A stretch of 28,360 nt of DNA, taken from positions 1 through 28,360 of IMG/VR virus record IMGVR_UViG_3300021093_005236; one strand, given 5' to 3'. Both the position numbers and the translations under genes were made by a program. The DNA comes from a virus. The notes below the pieces were generated by a model that saw nothing but the letters and a program-made list of their open reading frames with translations, did not search any database and was not told where the DNA came from. Shown here in pieces: positions 5,647 to 24,424 of this stretch (position 1 is its first letter; every line of letters begins with the position of its first letter).

Positions 5647-8505
5647 TTACTTTTTGTACTTGGATAAAACAGGATACTGTGTTACATCTTCATCTGTCAA
5701 GGGCTCTCCCCATCGAATGCATACTTCTGGATCTATATTTAGCAGAAGATCATTTCCTGGAATTCTGCACCTATCGCACATTGCGATTTTTATTACTTCT
5801 AAAGTTTCTTCTACCTGACTTACTGGGCAAGTTACTATAACTTGGTCGTGAACGCTCATGATTATCTTATATTTGAGATGCGGCCTTTCTTCATTTCTGA
5901 TTAAGAACAAATTGACCAAGGCCAACGACATTAAGTCGCCAACAGTTCCCTGAATGGGCGCGTTCATAGCCTGTCTCTTTTGATGCGATATGAGCTCTTT
6001 GTCTTTGGTTTTGTCAAACCTTCTTTTACGGCCAAAGCCATTTTCTACATATCCTTGCGTATTATCGCCTACGCAAGCCTGTTGCAGCTCTAACCAATAT
6101 GCAAGGTTTGGAAAAGTCTCTTTAAACTTGTCAACAGAGTCTTGAGCCTCCTCCACTGTGATATTAATTCCTTCCATATATACTGCTTGACGAATTGCAG
6201 CTGCACCACGACCATACGCAATTCCAAATGTAATAGTTTTCGCAATGGTTCTATACTTTCCGTTACCTGATTCTTTTAGCCACTCCTTAAGTCCCTTTGA
6301 ATAGTCCGCCGGTGGCTTTGGCAAACGAAACATGTCTATAGCAACTTCAGAGTGGAAGTCCGAGCCTGGATCGTTTAACTTTTGTTGCATATTTCCATCT
6401 TTGCTAAGCCAAGCCATGACGAACAGCTCAGCTTGAACCCAATCGCAATCCAATAATGCCCAGCCTGGATCTGCACGGAAGCAAGATCTTATAGATGGAA
6501 TTTTCTTTCCAGTATCTTTAAAAGCACGTCCTACTAAATCTTCTGCAGTCTTTGGCAGCTGGGCCATATTTGGATCAGAGTGTCCATATCGTCCAGTTTC
6601 TACCGTCTGTCTAATTTTAGTATGGGTTCTACCGTCCGACCATAACTTTGGAAGAATTCCGCCTTCTATGAAGTGGGATCCATCTTCTGCAACCACAAAC
6701 GATCCACAGAAAGTTTTAACTGTTTGAGAAACAGCTGTATACAGCAGCATGGTGTTTAAGAATTCGTCATCCTTGTGAGATAGCAATAACTCCTGGATTA
6801 CAGCACGTTCAGTGGACGGTGTATAGCTTTCGATTGTTTCAGGGTTCTTTATAACATCCGACCACTTTTTTTCGTTTGTAGCTTTGATAGGCTCAAATCT
6901 TTTTAGAGTAGCTGTGCTAGGGGGATTAGTCTTGGCTCCAGGCTTTATCCATCCAAAAAGCGCTGCCGCCTTTTGAATTGAAGAGTCAGGATTAAAGTCC
7001 GACCAATTTAACATTTCCTTCAGACGGTCGACCAGCTCTCTGCGTTTTTCAGAGTATTTTTGAGACAAAAGTTCCAGTCTTTGCACATCGACGCCCATAC
7101 CAGTCATCTCCATCTCAAGAATAGGCATTGTTGCCGGCATAACCACTGTCTCAAACAAAGATTTGATCTTAATATTTTCTTTAAGATTCATCTCATGATT
7201 TTGCGTCTGAAATATTCTAAACGTGACATCGGCATCTTTAGCCGCATACTCGAACAAAATATCGTCAGGTATGCCTCCGTAGCTATGCACATCAACATCA
7301 TACTTGTTATTCTTAATCCAATTATTCAAGGCCAGCTCATATCTGCCCATCTTCGTATGCCTAGATGTGTACACCTCCAAACCCTGTGCCCAATTCTCAT
7401 TGAGCAGATGGCCGGCAAGAGCTGTATCCCAACCAAACAACACTGATAGGGTGACGTCTACTCCGTTGGATACCATCCAGGGCAAGTCTGCCCTAATAAA
7501 GTGGCCCACTAACCTGGTTCTTCCATTCTCAATAAATTTCTTTATCAGCTTCCACGCTTCAACTTTGTTGCATCCAAGTTGGGTAGGAGTCATGCCAGCA
7601 TGATTGAACACGATAACAAGGGCCTTGCCGGGAGTCCAGCTGAATTGAATACATCTGAGTTCTCCGTCAACGTGGTTTCTGCCTCCCCACTCGCAATCCA
7701 CAGAAACCCACCCGGAGTACTCTGATTCAATTGTTTTGAGGCTGTTCTCCAGATGATCTAAGCTATAGCAGTAGGTGTACGATATGTGCACATCGTCCAC
7801 GATTTGAGTAGTGTTGGAATTCAGTTCTTCAGCGATTCTGGTAAGTTCCATTTCCAAGCCGCCCCTCATTTCCGGAACGTGCAGCACGGCCGAAAAGTCG
7901 GTTATTGCAGTGGTTTTTACGCTGAGCGGACTTTCCTCCGCCGTCAGTGTCCTGTTTTTGTATTGCTCCATTGTCGCTTTTGCGCCAAATAGAGCCTTGA
8001 GAACCTTAGCGCCCAGGATGATCAGAAGATCCGGCTTAACCAGCTCCAACTCCTTCTTGAACATTGGCATATAGTCTTCAATCAGATCTTTTGGAATAGT
8101 CGTCTTCTTACCGTGAACGTGAGTCTTAACAAAGGTGGTAAGGTACACGTCGTTTATATTTAATCCGGTTTTAGACATCAAATCCTTGAATTCAATCGTC
8201 CAGTCTCCATGAAAAAGCCTTTTCTCTTTTTCCTCTATGGAGTTGGGCCACGATCCAACCATCATGATTTTTTTGTAACTTGGACCTACGTTTGCATACT
8301 TATCGGTGCCTACAGAGTCCAGATGGATGCCGGGCAATATAATCATAGGTGAGGTTATGCCCGTTTCTCCAGTTTTGGTTGTCTCATATACTTTATTTAG
8401 TATGTCCGTAGCTGTATATGCGACGCTCTGACTGCGCTCTTTGGCAACCTTAATAACGACGTTTCCATACGTCTCTATGTCTTTATCTACTATTTCTACT
8501 GGCAT
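5647..8505 (-). CDS. polA: family A DNA polymerase with N-terminal uracil-DNA-glycosylase-like domain
   Basis: The replicative polymerase. ATG 8505 is chosen because TTGGAG sits five bases upstream; the frame also has GTG at 8511 (numbering below uses that frame). Residues about 80-230 resemble the family 4 uracil-DNA glycosylase fold (KIMMVGSWP, DVYLTTFVKT, KPDLLIILGAKVLKALFG), but the usual GEAPG motif is absent, so it is probably non-catalytic. SPO1-type phage polymerases are known to carry such a domain. The 3'-5' exonuclease looks intact: D272/E274 (VDCEW), D342 (RADLPW), D426 (YAAKDAD). Polymerase motif A is DCDWVQAE (D690, E695) and motif B is R754-K758-F762-Y766. Motif C is SVHDQV (D889), with Gln replacing the usual Glu. 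There is no 5'-nuclease domain. ClpS-like and primase genes lie upstream, and the ssDNA-binding candidate lies downstream. Confidence 0.95.
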   Translation of the reverse strand: MPVEIVDKDIETYGNVVIKVAKERSQSVAYTATDILNKVYETTKTGETGITSPMIILPGIHLDSVGTDKYANVGPSYKKIMMVGSWPNSIEEKEKRLFHGDWTIEFKDLMSKTGLNINDVYLTTFVKTHVHGKKTTIPKDLIEDYMPMFKKELELVKPDLLIILGAKVLKALFGAKATMEQYKNRTLTAEESPLSVKTTAITDFSAVLHVPEMRGGLEMELTRIAEELNSNTTQIVDDVHISYTYCYSLDHLENSLKTIESEYSGWVSVDCEWGGRNHVDGELRCIQFSWTPGKALVIVFNHAGMTPTQLGCNKVEAWKLIKKFIENGRTRLVGHFIRADLPWMVSNGVDVTLSVLFGWDTALAGHLLNENWAQGLEVYTSRHTKMGRYELALNNWIKNNKYDVDVHSYGGIPDDILFEYAAKDADVTFRIFQTQNHEMNLKENIKIKSLFETVVMPATMPILEMEMTGMGVDVQRLELLSQKYSEKRRELVDRLKEMLNWSDFNPDSSIQKAAALFGWIKPGAKTNPPSTATLKRFEPIKATNEKKWSDVIKNPETIESYTPSTERAVIQELLLSHKDDEFLNTMLLYTAVSQTVKTFCGSFVVAEDGSHFIEGGILPKLWSDGRTHTKIRQTVETGRYGHSDPNMAQLPKTAEDLVGRAFKDTGKKIPSIRSCFRADPGWALLDCDWVQAELFVMAWLSKDGNMQQKLNDPGSDFHSEVAIDMFRLPKPPADYSKGLKEWLKESGNGKYRTIAKTITFGIAYGRGAAAIRQAVYMEGINITVEEAQDSVDKFKETFPNLAYWLELQQACVGDNTQGYVENGFGRKRRFDKTKDKELISHQKRQAMNAPIQGTVGDLMSLALVNLFLIRNEERPHLKYKIIMSVHDQVIVTCPVSQVEETLEVIKIAMCDRCRIPGNDLLLNIDPEVCIRWGEPLTDEDVTQYPVLSKYKK

Positions 8506-8561: not shown

Positions 8562-8849
8562 TTATTCACAGGTAGGCTCTATTGAACAACTTAAACCGCG
8601 GGATATCAATTGCTCCATTATGAATTCAGCATACTCCTTATGCGTGATCTTGATTATGGAAACGCCTTCCTTATCTACCTCTAAAGTCTTTATGACCGCA
8701 TGGTGCGGCATCATTCCCACTATTTCCATAAAGCAATTGATTACGTGTTCAAACGTATTTACATCGTCATTATGCACTAGCACCATCCATTGCGGAAGTG
8801 GTGCGCTATCAGTATCGGTATTCGGAGCATCTGCAATTTGTTTATTCAT
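8562..8849 (-). CDS. clpS: ClpS-like N-end-rule protease adaptor
   Basis: The 95-residue product matches ClpS in length and layout: a short disordered N-terminus rich in Asp, Thr and Pro (1-18), strand WMVLVHNDD (21-29), helix EHVINCFMEIVGM, helix HHAVIKTLEV, then strand and helix to a final IEPT. ClpS binds the N-domain of ClpA or ClpC and delivers proteins with bulky hydrophobic N-termini. The N-D-D signature that binds the substrate alpha-amino group is present (27-29). At positions matching E. coli Met40 and His66 I align Phe33 and Asp59, so substrate choice may differ. The start is ATG 8849, with AAGGA eight bases upstream; the longer frame to TTG 8879 lacks such a site. The gene lies between primase and polymerase on the same strand. 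Confidence 0.85.
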   Translation of the reverse strand: MNKQIADAPNTDTDSAPLPQWMVLVHNDDVNTFEHVINCFMEIVGMMPHHAVIKTLEVDKEGVSIIKITHKEYAEFIMEQLISRGLSCSIEPTCE

Positions 8850-8869
8850 TTTATGTGTCCTTTTTTTAT

Positions 8870-9967
8870 TTATTGCCAATTGCCTATGGCTTCCATTAAC
8901 TCTAGGGTAGACATGGTGGCTGGATCCTGACCCTTTGGTAATTTCACCGTAATACAGCCTTTAGCTATCTTACAGTTCAGCCTTTCTATGCACTCAAAAA
9001 TTCTGCCATTGATAGCAGCCTCGTACTCCACCATAAATATGATCTGTCCGTCTTTGAATGTATTTGCTAGCAATTCCTCCTGCATAGGCTTGGGATACAT
9101 ACCAAACGTGCATACTCCAGCACGACCGCATGCAATCGCTGATAAGGCCCCCTCACAAACTATGCAGAACATACCCTCGCTGAATTTTCTAGCGTCATCC
9201 AATCTATATACAGAATTACTGAATGAATACCCTGGGGCATTCAAGTATTTTTGTATAACGGGCTTTTTGGTAATTGAATCATATGGTATGGGGCCAATGT
9301 ATCTAGCCATCCACCCCTGCCACACTCCTTGTTGAACATTTGGTATTATCAGTCTACGTTCAGGAGTTACAGTATGCCAGATGCCACCTGAATCCATAAA
9401 GCTTCTTTTCCATGGACTTTTTTTGCAGTAACAAAATTGGTATTCGGACGCCATTTTGTTTATGTCGTTAAATCCCCGGGACACCAGGTAGGATATGGCG
9501 GGGTGATCTTCTGGCAGTTCATTAATAGGCACAAGGTCGTCTACGTCTCCAGGCAATTCCATTTTCCTGGTGTCCGCGTCAACTCCAGTTTTAAGCGAAT
9601 CGGTTTTCACGTCGTATGCCGCTATGTCGGAGTTGCCATAAAGCGCCTCCCACATGTCCGACCAATCGCAAGCTTCATTATGACACTTTATGCAGGAATA
9701 TATTTTTCTGCCTGCCTCCTCGCATCTGGTGCCCCATACATGACTAATGTACAGACGTGAACGTTTATCGTTGCATTTTGGGCAGTTGACAGAATAGGTT
9801 TCGCCCCAATTAATTATGTTTATTTTCTTTTTAGTATTAAGGTCGAAATACGACGCTAGGGCATCGGTTACTATTCTATATTTTGCCTCTACTCCAGAAT
9901 TGTTTATCTTTACTTTTCCAAATTTACCTTGAAGAGCTTTGTACAATTTTTCATTTATGGGTTTCAT
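8870..9967 (-). CDS. DnaG/gp4-type DNA primase
   Basis: Synthesises RNA primers for lagging-strand replication and would work with the DnaB-like helicase encoded immediately upstream (ATGA 4-nt overlap). An N-terminal zinc-binding region has CPKC (62-65) and CIKCHNEAC (92-100). A primase core follows with RRLIIPN and a YLNAPGYSFSNSVY segment like the catalytic N-lobe of DnaG. The TOPRIM fold shows VCEGALSA (Glu272) and then FMVEYEAA (about 312-318), where family members usually have D-x-D. Both acidic positions are kept as Glu rather than Asp, which is unusual. The length of 365 residues fits a phage primase without a helicase domain. The short lysine-rich segment PKGQDPA near the C-terminus is common in such primases. 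Confidence 0.85.
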   Translation of the reverse strand: MKPINEKLYKALQGKFGKVKINNSGVEAKYRIVTDALASYFDLNTKKKINIINWGETYSVNCPKCNDKRSRLYISHVWGTRCEEAGRKIYSCIKCHNEACDWSDMWEALYGNSDIAAYDVKTDSLKTGVDADTRKMELPGDVDDLVPINELPEDHPAISYLVSRGFNDINKMASEYQFCYCKKSPWKRSFMDSGGIWHTVTPERRLIIPNVQQGVWQGWMARYIGPIPYDSITKKPVIQKYLNAPGYSFSNSVYRLDDARKFSEGMFCIVCEGALSAIACGRAGVCTFGMYPKPMQEELLANTFKDGQIIFMVEYEAAINGRIFECIERLNCKIAKGCITVKLPKGQDPATMSTLELMEAIGNWQ

Positions 9968-11439
9968 CCTAGATTTTCTCTAACTGCTGAGCTAAATTCT
10001 GCAGCGCTTACTGCCTTGCGAGAGTGCCTATCAAATAAAGTTGGTGATCCTGCCTCTGATAAACTGTCCTGATCGTAAACCTTCATAGACTCAATATCTA
10101 CATTTGCTTTGTCCACATACTTCCATCTTGACAAAGCGCCTTCCATCTGGATTGTCATATCCATAAATGGCTGGCCGTTTCTTACCTTAGGTGCAGTAAT
10201 CCAGGCCAAGTTACTTTCAGGATCTCTGTTTCCTATGCATATAACTGTATCCATGTAATGATGCAGAGTTCTGCATTGAAATGCATCTGTAGCCTCTGGC
10301 TTCCTCCTTGCGCCTGCCTGGGCAGCTTGAGTTCCAAGCTGGTGATATATGAAAATATTGACTCCGTAGTCGGTGCCTATTTTTCTTATCTGGTCGGCGC
10401 AATCATTCATTACTTTGGTTATGTCGTTCTGATTTATGTTCCTGAGTGCCATATAGTTATTCACCATGGGTCCAAGCCAGTCTATACCCACATATCTCAG
10501 ATTGGCGCCCTTGTCCAGAACTTGTTTAATCATTCTTGCGATTTCAGGAGGTCCGCCACTACCACCCTTGTTATTCCTGGCCGCTTCCAGCATATCAAAT
10601 AGATGTAGCCTTCCTTTGAGTCGGCTCTTTATATCAGCCCATTTAGTCATCATGGCCTTGTTGTCTTTAAACTTAGATACACTCATACTGTTTAGCGATG
10701 CTATTGGTATGCCAAGCGCATAAGAATAAATTCTATTGGTGATGCCGGGCACAACGGCCTGCTCGTAACTAATGATCATAGAATCCTCGCCATTCAAAGC
10801 GGTCGTGGTAGCCATCTGAACGTTAGTTAAGGTCTTGCCGCCTCCGGAGGGAGCTAATAGAAGAGTGGTTTCTCCTGGAGACGAGCCTCCGCTTGTAACC
10901 ACGTCCACGAAGTCTACACCCCATGGCTTTCTTTTATTATCAATCAACATTGGGTCGTCTTTTGCAAACGGATCAACAGCTCCCGTTTTGCAAATGGACG
11001 ACTTTGCAACCTCCTGATTTAGCTTACTAATTCCCTCTAACAAGTCTCCAGATTTTGGAAGTTGTTCAATTACTGGCAGTATCTTTCTGGTAATTAGTAG
11101 CTTCTTGAGTTCCTCAAGAATGTAATCCTTTACTTCTTTGATGTCGGATATTGAAGAATACGCCCACTGCAACTGTTCTCCGAACAACACCGCATCCGAT
11201 TCAGATATTAGATTGTTTCTTAATACTTTATGTTCGAACTCTGATAGCACGATATCGTAAGGAACTGCGCTCTTAGATTGTTTGAACCAACTGCTGCCGA
11301 TGATGTAGGCCACTCGTAATGGATTTTCGCTTTCTTTAAAATCTTTTAATGACAGCTTACTGAAAGCCTCCTCCATTACGTCGGGAGACCTCAGGAAGCC
11401 TAGGATTAGCCATTTGCTATATGTTTGGTTTATATCCAT
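9964..11439 (-). CDS. DnaB-type replicative helicase
   Basis: A RecA-fold hexameric helicase that unwinds the fork. The N-terminal 150 residues are helical, as in the DnaB N-domain. The motor domain has GVDFVDVVTSGGSSPGETTLLLAP, Walker A APSGGGKT (196-203), an acidic strand IISYEQ (about 223-228, with the catalytic-type Glu), Walker B YVGIDWLGPM (Asp about 320), and FIYHQLG (about 363-369), matching the Gln/His sensor motif. The C-terminal 60 residues look disordered. The gene overlaps the upstream gene by 10 nt and the primase by 4 nt, so helicase and primase are co-translated. ATG 11439 has AGGA about eleven bases upstream. The family assignment is firm; no loader protein is recognised. Confidence 0.92.
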   Translation of the reverse strand: MDINQTYSKWLILGFLRSPDVMEEAFSKLSLKDFKESENPLRVAYIIGSSWFKQSKSAVPYDIVLSEFEHKVLRNNLISESDAVLFGEQLQWAYSSISDIKEVKDYILEELKKLLITRKILPVIEQLPKSGDLLEGISKLNQEVAKSSICKTGAVDPFAKDDPMLIDNKRKPWGVDFVDVVTSGGSSPGETTLLLAPSGGGKTLTNVQMATTTALNGEDSMIISYEQAVVPGITNRIYSYALGIPIASLNSMSVSKFKDNKAMMTKWADIKSRLKGRLHLFDMLEAARNNKGGSGGPPEIARMIKQVLDKGANLRYVGIDWLGPMVNNYMALRNINQNDITKVMNDCADQIRKIGTDYGVNIFIYHQLGTQAAQAGARRKPEATDAFQCRTLHHYMDTVICIGNRDPESNLAWITAPKVRNGQPFMDMTIQMEGALSRWKYVDKANVDIESMKVYDQDSLSEAGSPTLFDRHSRKAVSAAEFSSAVRENLG

Positions 11440-13794: not shown

Positions 13795-13896
13795 GGGGGA
13801 GGGGGGGGGGGGTTGAAGGTTTTTTGTTTTTTTTTTTTTTTTTTTTTTTTTGTTTTGTTGGGGGGGGGGGGGGGGGGGGGTTGCCCCCTCCCCCCC
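13795..13896. repeat. block of long homopolymer tracts between the SbcC-like gene and the next gene
   Basis: In order on the plus strand: 5 G, A, 12 G (13801-13812), a short mixed stretch, 25 T (13827-13851), 21 G (13860-13880), TTG, 5 C, T, 7 C (to 13896). Nothing else in the window resembles it. On the minus (coding) strand this reads as G-rich, then C21, then A25, then C12, between a stop codon and the next ATG. Poly-G and poly-T runs of this kind are a known product of sequencing artefacts or poor gap closure, and that is my first explanation. A real slippery or structure-forming spacer cannot be excluded. It replaces any Shine-Dalgarno site expected for the gene starting at 13779. Confidence 0.9.
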
Positions 13897-13904
13897 TTAA
13901 TTAC

Positions 13905-21751: not shown

Positions 21752-24424
21752 TTAGTTGTTAAATAGATTCATCAAAGCCGCTTTTCTAAGGCTTTTTAAT
21801 CTCTTTATTGACGACACAAGGGTATTCCATGTGGGCTTAGGTAATACCAATAAGGATACTCCATTTTTGGTCATACTTTTTGCTCCAAGGTCTTTTAAAT
21901 GTAAAATAGCTGCTTCCCAAGCCACTACAGGTATGTTGTAATACCTCATCTGACCCCACAAATTAGCTAAATCTATTGCCACAATGTCTTCCATTGGATT
22001 TTTTAATATCACATACCGCTTCTTAGTGCTTTCCCCAGTAAAGGTCTTGAACATGCCGTTTTCGACACCCTCATGTATAAAGTTTATTAAGTGTGCGGCT
22101 GCTGAAGAGCTATTTATGTAACCTTTTGTGGAAACCATAGCCTTTGCGGCCTCTATTACTCGTGCGGGTTTGTTTAGAGAATTAGCCAAATACTTTAGGT
22201 TATCTAAAAAGCTATGTGGTCCATTATGCTTTACTGTAAGAGAATACTGCATGAGAAAAGGAAATGCATTTTCACTTTTCAATAAAGCCTTTGTTTCATA
22301 TGAGAACGGCACATCTGCTCGCACAAATGCCCAATCCTTATCAGCAGCTAGGGCCGACGCCATCATAGGATTAACGACAACCATGCTGTTTAGGCCTTGT
22401 CCCTCCAGCCACTGAGCCAAAAGCTTGGGCTTGGATCTATTGCCATCTATGGCTACAGGTACGTGGTGTATAGTGGCTAAGGAGTGAGCAGACTCCATAT
22501 CATCTTTGTTGTTCAAAGTGGTGGCCTTCAGGCCTAAATCCATCCTGATTACGTCAAATATATATTCTGCCAAGGATCCTTTGCTACCCCCAAACAAGGT
22601 ATTTGTTCTCGAAGATTCGTTGATGACCGAATGTATAGCAGAAATCATGGAGGCCATTCCTGCCATATATGCCGCTGTTTCTGGCCCATAATCAAATAAA
22701 CTGGCTATTGAGTCTATGGCTATGCCGGGATCCATCATTACGGATGCACAGGGCGGCTCCACGTCATCCATTACGAATGGAACTCCGACTCTTATCTGGT
22801 GCGAATCTATCGACATTCTAGGTATATTGAATCTACCGGTATCAAAGTCATAGCCAACGTAGTTCTGCACAGCATGCACCTCTGGTGAACTAAGTCTCAA
22901 TATTATGTCTAAATACTTTTTAGACATTGAATCGAGCAAAAATGGATGCTTTGATATGCCTGCATTGACAGAAATTAATGCAAGAGCTTTTGCAGGATCG
23001 GATTCCAGGAGTTCTTCGTCCATCTGAAAATCCACTTCTTTGCCTTCAAATGTAAATCTCCCAAACAAAGACGCCTTTCCATCTTGTTTTGATCTGCATA
23101 TATTAGTGATTCTCACTGTAGCATTGCATATGAGTTCATCTGGAATTTCCCTGGAACCCTGCATCCACAGTTTTCCATCTTTTTCAAATACTATTTTTTT
23201 ATCTATTATTACTAGTTGAGAGGTTGCCACATTCTCAAGAATATCCTCAAGCTCTTCTCGTATCGTATTTGAGCACGAAGCAAGTATGAGGTTCTTTTGA
23301 AATGTCGAAAGCTCCATAGCTTTTACGACATTCCTAGCGTTTACAACCCCCATTGTGATAAGTTCTGTAGTGAGAAAATCCAAAGGATTGATTAAATTAT
23401 TTTCAGATATATGTTTATGGATCGTAGGCATTAAATTACCCATCCATAACTTTGATGTTTTCTCAGCAGGCCTCCAAATATACGGAGTGTCATCTAGCAT
23501 TATTTTAAAGTTTTTAGACTTTATACAAGTTTTTAAAAATGCGGTATCTGGGGCGTCCGTCCAAACGATTGTTGGCTTAGGTAAGAACAGTGGATCTAAT
23601 TGACCTATTGGGGACTTGGCCACCACAGACAATTTATTATAACGCTCTATCGTACATTTTTGGACTATTCTCGCTGCTTGAAGGGGGTGATCTAAGACAT
23701 AGACCTCTGCAGAGGGGTCTCTATGACAAGAATTTAAGCCGCAGTATCCTGGATAGTGCCCACTTAAGACGTTTAAATAATTAAGCTGGTCTTTATTTCC
23801 TATAAATCCAAATCCTGAAATAAATCCAGGGTTTAAGTAAAAAGGAGTAACTATTAGCCCTTCTGTAGCTTTTCCAAATCCATGGATTTTATCTTCCAGC
23901 AGCTCCTCTATTTCATGTTTATGGGCATATCCGAACCAATCTGTAAATCCTCGATTATAGGTCTCCTGACTTACCCAAAGATTAAGTTCGCTAAGTCTGC
24001 CTGTAGCAAATCTATTAGCGGTTGGAAACATGTTGTTTCTGGCGATTTCCCACACCTTCAATACTTTATTGTAATACCTTTGATAAAATGTAGAATAACT
24101 AATTAAATCTTCCATTAACAGATCTTTTATTTTTAGCTCTTCTGCAATTTTATGTACTAATTCTTCTGGATTTAAGATCTTGTACGCCTGGCCGTACAGG
24201 CGAAGGCCTTCACATGAAAGTTTACATTTATCGCAGTACATCCATCCGCCAAATGGAATTAACGCCGAAACGTACATATTTGCAGTTTTACACTTAATGC
24301 ATCTAACATAACTGCCAGGTTTGGCAATATCGTCGTAGCCCAAAAGTTTCAGAATTTTTGTATAATGGAAGGCCGAGTAGAACTTTTCCGAAGGAACACC
24401 ATCTATGATTCGCTGGATTGACAT
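21752..24424 (-). CDS. large zinc-ribbon protein resembling a degenerate primase-helicase
   Basis: 890 residues. The N-terminus has a zinc ribbon like DnaG primases: CIKC (42-45) and CDKC (64-67). A segment at 195-220 (GFISGFGFIGNKDQLNYLN) resembles the primase catalytic core. Residues 240-254 (EVYVLDHPLQAAR) and 283-294 (PTIVWTDAPDTA) sit where TOPRIM acidic motifs would be, but the sequence is altered. Residues 605-660 look like an ATPase: TLFGGSKGSLAEYIF in place of a P-loop, then MESAHSLATIHHVPVAID, reminiscent of the D5/DUF927-type helicase domain, but without a proper GKS/T. The real primase and helicase are encoded elsewhere, so this may be a divergent or inactivated paralogue with a new role. 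ATG 24424 overlaps the divergent gene's start by 20 nt and has no clear Shine-Dalgarno site. Confidence 0.55.
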   Translation of the reverse strand: MSIQRIIDGVPSEKFYSAFHYTKILKLLGYDDIAKPGSYVRCIKCKTANMYVSALIPFGGWMYCDKCKLSCEGLRLYGQAYKILNPEELVHKIAEELKIKDLLMEDLISYSTFYQRYYNKVLKVWEIARNNMFPTANRFATGRLSELNLWVSQETYNRGFTDWFGYAHKHEIEELLEDKIHGFGKATEGLIVTPFYLNPGFISGFGFIGNKDQLNYLNVLSGHYPGYCGLNSCHRDPSAEVYVLDHPLQAARIVQKCTIERYNKLSVVAKSPIGQLDPLFLPKPTIVWTDAPDTAFLKTCIKSKNFKIMLDDTPYIWRPAEKTSKLWMGNLMPTIHKHISENNLINPLDFLTTELITMGVVNARNVVKAMELSTFQKNLILASCSNTIREELEDILENVATSQLVIIDKKIVFEKDGKLWMQGSREIPDELICNATVRITNICRSKQDGKASLFGRFTFEGKEVDFQMDEELLESDPAKALALISVNAGISKHPFLLDSMSKKYLDIILRLSSPEVHAVQNYVGYDFDTGRFNIPRMSIDSHQIRVGVPFVMDDVEPPCASVMMDPGIAIDSIASLFDYGPETAAYMAGMASMISAIHSVINESSRTNTLFGGSKGSLAEYIFDVIRMDLGLKATTLNNKDDMESAHSLATIHHVPVAIDGNRSKPKLLAQWLEGQGLNSMVVVNPMMASALAADKDWAFVRADVPFSYETKALLKSENAFPFLMQYSLTVKHNGPHSFLDNLKYLANSLNKPARVIEAAKAMVSTKGYINSSSAAAHLINFIHEGVENGMFKTFTGESTKKRYVILKNPMEDIVAIDLANLWGQMRYYNIPVVAWEAAILHLKDLGAKSMTKNGVSLLVLPKPTWNTLVSSIKRLKSLRKAALMNLFNN

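Follow-up and report, generated by a model that had tools for sequence, protein, structure and literature searches.

ClpS of E. coli docks on the N-domain of ClpA and delivers N-degron proteins. It also inhibits the degradation of ssrA-type substrates, and its N-terminal tail enters the channel (PMC9663308). ClpS has been described in jumbo phages as well, where its proposed role is to bring targets to the host ClpAP (PMC7824862), and the ClpS of Atu_ph07 is listed among the Clp-like proteins of that phage (PMC6102473). GenBank phages annotated with ClpS include PA5oct, Phosso, GAP32 and Kaldavass. The entry 'Acinetobacter phage MD-2021a' (L170, CAKLQH020000043.1) was rejected as a phage ClpS; it is likely bacterial chromosome, with clpS beside clpA and argC. 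An earlier sequence-only reading of the DNA studied here was aware of no characterised phage ClpS. In the literature library searched, no phage ClpS turned up that had been studied by experiment, but ClpS is annotated in jumbo phages and an adaptor role has been put forward for it in the reports cited above. A literature search on planctomycete phages gave nothing direct. Phage ClpS is thus already known from jumbo phages, and the planctomycete-type branch described below keeps it at one fixed spot.

The window, which is the whole stretch of DNA analysed, comprises 28,360 nt (positions 1 to 28,360 of IMG/VR virus record IMGVR_UViG_3300021093_005236). It carries a gene for a ClpS-family protein (P0001) inside a phage replication operon, with the following features.

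8562..8849, minus strand: ClpS-family adaptor gene, encoding P0001 of 95 aa (Pfam and predicted fold)
8858..8862, minus strand: ribosome-binding site AAGGA, 8 nt 5' of the clpS ATG (read from the sequence)
8870..9967, minus strand: DNA primase, upstream neighbour of clpS (phrog_47, E=2.8e-20)
5647..8505, minus strand: DNA polymerase A (polA) with 3'-5' exonuclease and uracil-DNA-glycosylase-like domain, downstream neighbour of clpS (PF00476)
9964..11439, minus strand: DnaB-like replicative helicase of the same gene run (phrog_19, E=5.1e-22)

The plus-strand frame at 8562-8849 is interrupted by stops, and the 95-codon ORF lies on the minus strand with its start at ATG 8849. The placement of clpS between primase and polymerase in the sequence-only reading was borne out by the phrog_47 and PF00476 matches of the two flanking genes. 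The primase stop is 20 nt from the clpS ATG. The ORF list starts polA at GTG 8511, and ATG 8505, 56 nt from clpS, fits its relatives. The minus-strand run also includes genes for a UvsX-like recombinase, an SbcC/SbcD-like pair and another helicase, and the large terminase of the window is on the plus strand. The uracil-DNA-glycosylase-like domain occupies residues 76-195 of polA, N-terminal to the exonuclease and polymerase domains. Base-identical clpS copies were found in three other IMG/VR contigs (40, 71 and 111 kb).

P0001 matched the Pfam ClpS family (PF02617) with 60.3 bits (E=1.5e-16; 60.2 bits in the genome search), for which the curated cut-off is 23 bits. The NCBIfam ClpS models matched below their strict equivalog cut-offs (60.3 versus 107), and PHROGs gave a weak match to 'ATP-dependent protease'. 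Sequence matches in the PDB were ClpS throughout (chloroplast, Plasmodium and mycobacterial); for two of them the source organism is taken in part from the Foldseek entries. The AlphaFold model of P0001 has a mean pLDDT of 84.7, with values above 90 over most of the core, and its secondary-structure order is beta-alpha-alpha-beta-alpha-beta. When this model was searched against the PDB with Foldseek, all 38 of the 38 matches at E<=0.001 were ClpS or ClpS-containing entries (best E 1.4e-7), and the top match was ClpS1 in 7d34 (TM 0.93 by target, rmsd 1.1). The model is not independent of homology, because its alignment contained bacterial ClpS. The comparison of a predicted structure with ClpS, which had been proposed earlier as a check, came out for ClpS, and the ClpS fold order and NDD motif noticed earlier agree with the Pfam score, the model and the NDD at residues 27-29. 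The C-terminal domain of ribosomal protein L7/L12 has a related fold but is a weaker structural and profile match than ClpS; an L7/L12-like protein was rejected since Foldseek reached 8.6e-3 at best versus 1.4e-7 for ClpS, without a Pfam L7/L12 match. Outside the core, the model shows one further feature.

8793..8849, minus strand: unstructured N-terminal extension, residues 1-19, ending in a proline-bearing junction A-P-L-P (pLDDT 48 for residues 1-10 and 65 for residues 11-20)

The prolines of this junction are one residue apart and not in tandem. Junction prolines are a described feature of ClpS (PMC9663308).

The order primase-clpS-polA was also found in L012, L013, L015 and L115, so the gene does recur beside primase and polymerase in other genomes, where the sequence-only reading had suggested looking. 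In L012-L015, clpS overlaps the primase end. L011 is the nearest relative of the window by polymerase (79%), and here the primase is followed directly by polA; no ClpS match was found in its 57-kb record. Because the polymerase tree pairs L011 with the window (100/100), loss of clpS in L011 is the simplest reading, and the other genes of the replication run were kept. Two further records carry a tandem clpS pair (L028 9932-10650 and L029 419-1137), and between its two members the C-terminal end of the primase gene recurs as an orphan copy. The second copy of this pair, named ClpS-b, stands alone in L014 (11124-11408).

The selection on these genes bears on whether clpS has a role. Among the canonical copies, the three closest pairs are under purifying selection, with dN/dS of 0.02 (L012/L013), 0.06 (L020/L023) and 0.04 (L119/L123). 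For ClpS-b, the L014/L028 pair gave a pN/pS of 2.35 versus 0.10 in polA of the same pair; with a Fisher p=0.15 for an excess, this ratio does not show positive selection on ClpS-b. Between L012 and L014, identity is 92-100% in the flanking DNA but falls to about 75% within clpS. The little constraint on ClpS-b and the absence of clpS in L011 would fit a gene with no function, carried along neutrally or left as a remnant. However, the window gene has an open frame and a good ribosome-binding site, the same spot is retained over a large divergence (49% protein identity between the ClpS of the window and that of L012), and purifying selection is strong in the L012/L013 pair. We therefore regard a passenger as very improbable.

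The residues of P0001 that correspond to the substrate pocket and the Clp-facing surface of E. coli ClpS were located by alignment.

8763..8771, minus strand: Asn27-Asp28-Asp29, corresponding to E. coli Asn34-Asp35-Asp36, the N-degron amino-group site (alignment)
8751..8753, minus strand: Phe33, corresponding to E. coli Met40, the pocket gatekeeper (alignment)
8685..8687, minus strand: Thr55, corresponding to E. coli Met62 (alignment)
8673..8675, minus strand: Asp59, corresponding to E. coli His66 (alignment)
8634..8636, minus strand: Glu72, corresponding to E. coli Glu79, presumed to face the N-domain of ClpA (alignment)

The PDB alignments also set the NDD, Phe33 and Asp59 at the same counterpart positions, and the alignment of Phe33 and Asp59 with Met40 and His66 claimed by the sequence-only reading therefore stands. 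In ClpA-ClpS structures, Glu79 belongs to the interface with the ClpA N-domain, and Glu72 is presumed to have the same role. Over the alignment, P0001 and E. coli ClpS are 25% identical. They share the fold, the NDD, Glu79 and an N-terminal extension with junction prolines, and they differ at Met40/Phe33, Met62/Thr55, His66/Asp59 and Lys84/Ile77. A hydrophobic gatekeeper at position 40 is thus present in P0001. His66 of E. coli ClpS, which is needed for amino-group binding, is absent, with Asp59 there instead. The position of Lys84 is Ile, Leu, Val or Tyr in host ClpS.

Phe33 and Asp59 had been read as a changed substrate pocket in the phage protein. In contrast, the same states, together with Thr at 62, are present in Planctomycetota chromosomal ClpS, and a phage-specific change was therefore rejected. 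The chromosomal ClpS closest to P0001 combine Tyr at 40 with Thr at 62 and Asp at 66. In other ClpS of the phylum, position 40 is Phe and position 66 is either His or Asp, and Thr at 62 occurs in most of the phylum. Asp at 66 was found in host ClpS L032-L039, L052, L057 and L065, so that His66 is not family-defining there, and the His/Asp exchange at this position accounts for at least five changes on the ClpS tree. The counterparts of N34, D35, D36, A58, T62, D66 and E79 are conserved across the canonical slot copies and the nearest host ClpS, with the exception of L028 copy a, where D36 is replaced by Asn. The same residue states occur in Planctomycetota ClpS and P0001 nests among these proteins; its pocket is inherited and of the donor type. 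As far as the alignment can tell, its pocket-mouth and Clp-facing residues are largely intact.

Among 84,980 bacterial and archaeal genomes, the nearest cellular relatives of P0001 were Planctomycetota ClpS, with 54-58% identity for most of the best. Where the contigs of these relatives were inspected, they read by their ORFs as ordinary chromosomal genes. The relatives in L032-L039 and L065 resemble P0001 in the NDD, Tyr at 40 (Phe elsewhere in the phylum), Thr62, Asp66, Glu79, a proline-bearing junction and a C-terminal IEP. They differ in lying on a very high-GC chromosome, outside a phage replication operon. On the ClpS tree (75 rows, 95 columns, with many forks open), the phages with clpS in the primase-polA slot form one clade (99/80), which joins the L020/L023 phages in the next clade (96/86) beside Planctomycetota chromosomal ClpS. 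Other viral ClpS fall with Bacteroidota, and a single phage clade uniting the Bacteroidota-type and planctomycete-type phage ClpS was rejected (p=3e-5). A shared origin of the slot phages with those that have KaiC/MoxR neighbours is compatible with this tree (p-AU 0.22). Phages have thus captured ClpS from two bacterial phyla or more (Planctomycetota and Bacteroidota types), which suggests that steering the host Clp benefits them.

The GC3 of clpS (0.43) is like that of its neighbours polA and primase (0.44) and unlike that of host clpS (0.91), which argues for an old resident and not a recent capture. The overall GC is 42% for the phage versus 68-70% for the contigs of the host relatives. A planctomycete host is likely for this phage. 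No close copy of the phage polA was found in 294 Planctomycetota genomes (best 36% identity), and with this gene neither a prophage nor a close phage relative was found there; for this reason the host is still one that we infer from the ClpS tree alone. A further phage set with planctomycete-type ClpS comprises L020-L024, L119 and L123. In L020 and L119, clpS lies directly 3' of a KaiC/DnaB-like ATPase gene, and in L020 it is followed by genes for a MoxR-like AAA ATPase and a DUF2201 metallopeptidase-VWA protein. Planctomycetota also hold a second ClpS-like group (L075, L080, L084-L091), mostly with DDD for NDD; its members have Asp66 and extra residues inserted ahead of the final strand. The contig L036 is titled Bacteroidia and encodes a ClpS protein identical to that of the planctomycete contig L034, which is probably a binning error.

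The jumbo-phage ClpS-like proteins (PA5oct, Atu_ph07, Phosso, GAP32, Kaldavass and Vibrio 2.275.O) are phage-encoded like P0001. P0001 fits their pattern, since its ClpS is on a phage genome (terminase, helicase, primase and polymerase in the window) and the records lack Clp_N and ClpP. In contrast, the jumbo-phage proteins lie on long branches far from the planctomycete type, their genes neighbour chaperone, translation or nucleotide genes, and the ClpS of PA5oct, Phosso and Kaldavass has His66, unlike P0001. Another ClpS, in the 167-kb phage record L030 (9899-10228), keeps His66 and has NTE for NDD; its gene adjoins genes reading like thymidylate synthase and dihydrofolate reductase.

No Clp_N or ClpP was found in 16 phage records of up to 174 kb, some of which may be fragments. 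A phage-encoded Clp machine was rejected on the basis of these records, and the host Clp would have to serve. In genomes of related bacteria, ClpS and Clp_N were present in 10/10 and the Leu/Phe transferase Aat in 9/10, which makes an N-degron pathway plausible in these bacteria. By analogy with E. coli ClpS, P0001 seems to have the parts for docking, delivery, inhibition and tail insertion. As a ClpS-family protein whose pocket-mouth and Clp-facing residues appear largely intact, it would most naturally be read as affecting host proteolysis. The more specific roles named in the sequence-only reading, removal of a replication or defence protein or competition with the host ClpS, are hypothetical.

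P0001 is a true, planctomycete-derived ClpS, and we consider it probable that it acts as an extra adaptor for the host Clp, delivering N-degron proteins and displacing other substrates. The gene was taken from a planctomycete and has long resided in the phage lineage. It would be expressed together with the replication genes, and its product would dock on the N-terminal domain of the host Clp unfoldase, ClpC or ClpA with ClpP. There it may deliver proteins whose N-termini are bulky and hydrophobic, and its occupation of the docking site may divert Clp from its other substrates during phage genome replication. The replacement of His66 by Asp59 speaks against this reading.

The fixed spot between primase and polymerase, together with the overlap of clpS with the primase end in L012-L015, could also mean that P0001 tunes how much of some phage protein is present. 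The N-degron would then be carried by a replication protein or a processed protein of the phage, and the adaptor would time its removal. Consistent with this are the KaiC/DnaB-like ATPase beside clpS in L020 and L119, the thymidine kinase by clpS in Phosso and Atu_ph07, and the Dda helicase near it in GAP32. However, clustering with replication genes may reflect expression timing only, and the loss of clpS in L011 with the rest of the run kept shows that it is dispensable. Such tuning seems improbable to us.

The main rival to the extra-adaptor reading is that P0001 mainly blocks Clp. It would fill the N-domain, insert its tail into the channel and shield phage proteins, for example those of replication or recombination, and N-degron binding would be incidental. 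ClpS-b of L014 and L028/L029 bears on this rival. It retains THKEHAELL in its C-terminal half, while the pocket mouth has become NRD or SRD for NDD, with Leu at 40, Ala at 62 and Lys at 66. The Pfam ClpS model scored 16.3 bits on it in L028 and did not match in L014; its predicted fold still matches ClpS, from an alignment that contained ClpS rows. The ClpS-like proteins of GAP32 (L167 2821-3354) and Kaldavass (L169 2782-3315) also lack the pocket residues, which is a second case of phage pocket loss. These copies would suit a blocker. In contrast, P0001 and its canonical slot counterparts retain the acidic amino-group site, and a pure blocker would not need the strong purifying selection seen in the L012/L013 pair. 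In a mycobacterial simulation, position 35 carries much of the ClpC contact (PMC6274998). ClpS-b has Arg at this position and may therefore not dock well. Altogether, we hold a blocker to be rather unlikely and keep the extra adaptor as the preferred reading.

The tandem, pocket-rewritten copies in the relatives are more unusual than the gene of the window itself. One speculative reading, to which we give little credence, is that new Clp adaptors arise at this spot as in a nursery. After its capture, ClpS would have been duplicated together with the primase end; the second copy would have diverged rapidly and given up the acidic N-degron pocket but not the fold, as an adaptor or decoy that steers the host Clp by a new recognition rule. 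This phage group is a natural comparison, since it offers close relatives with clpS, without clpS, with two copies and with a rewritten-pocket copy.

Elsewhere in the window, positions 21752-24424 (minus strand) encode a protein of 890 aa that begins with a CxxC-type zinc-binding motif and matched nothing in Pfam or PHROGs. At 13795-13897, two genes are separated by long G, T, G and C homopolymers. Near-identical contigs cease to align at these positions, which may reflect either faulty assembly or a genuine spacer of low complexity.
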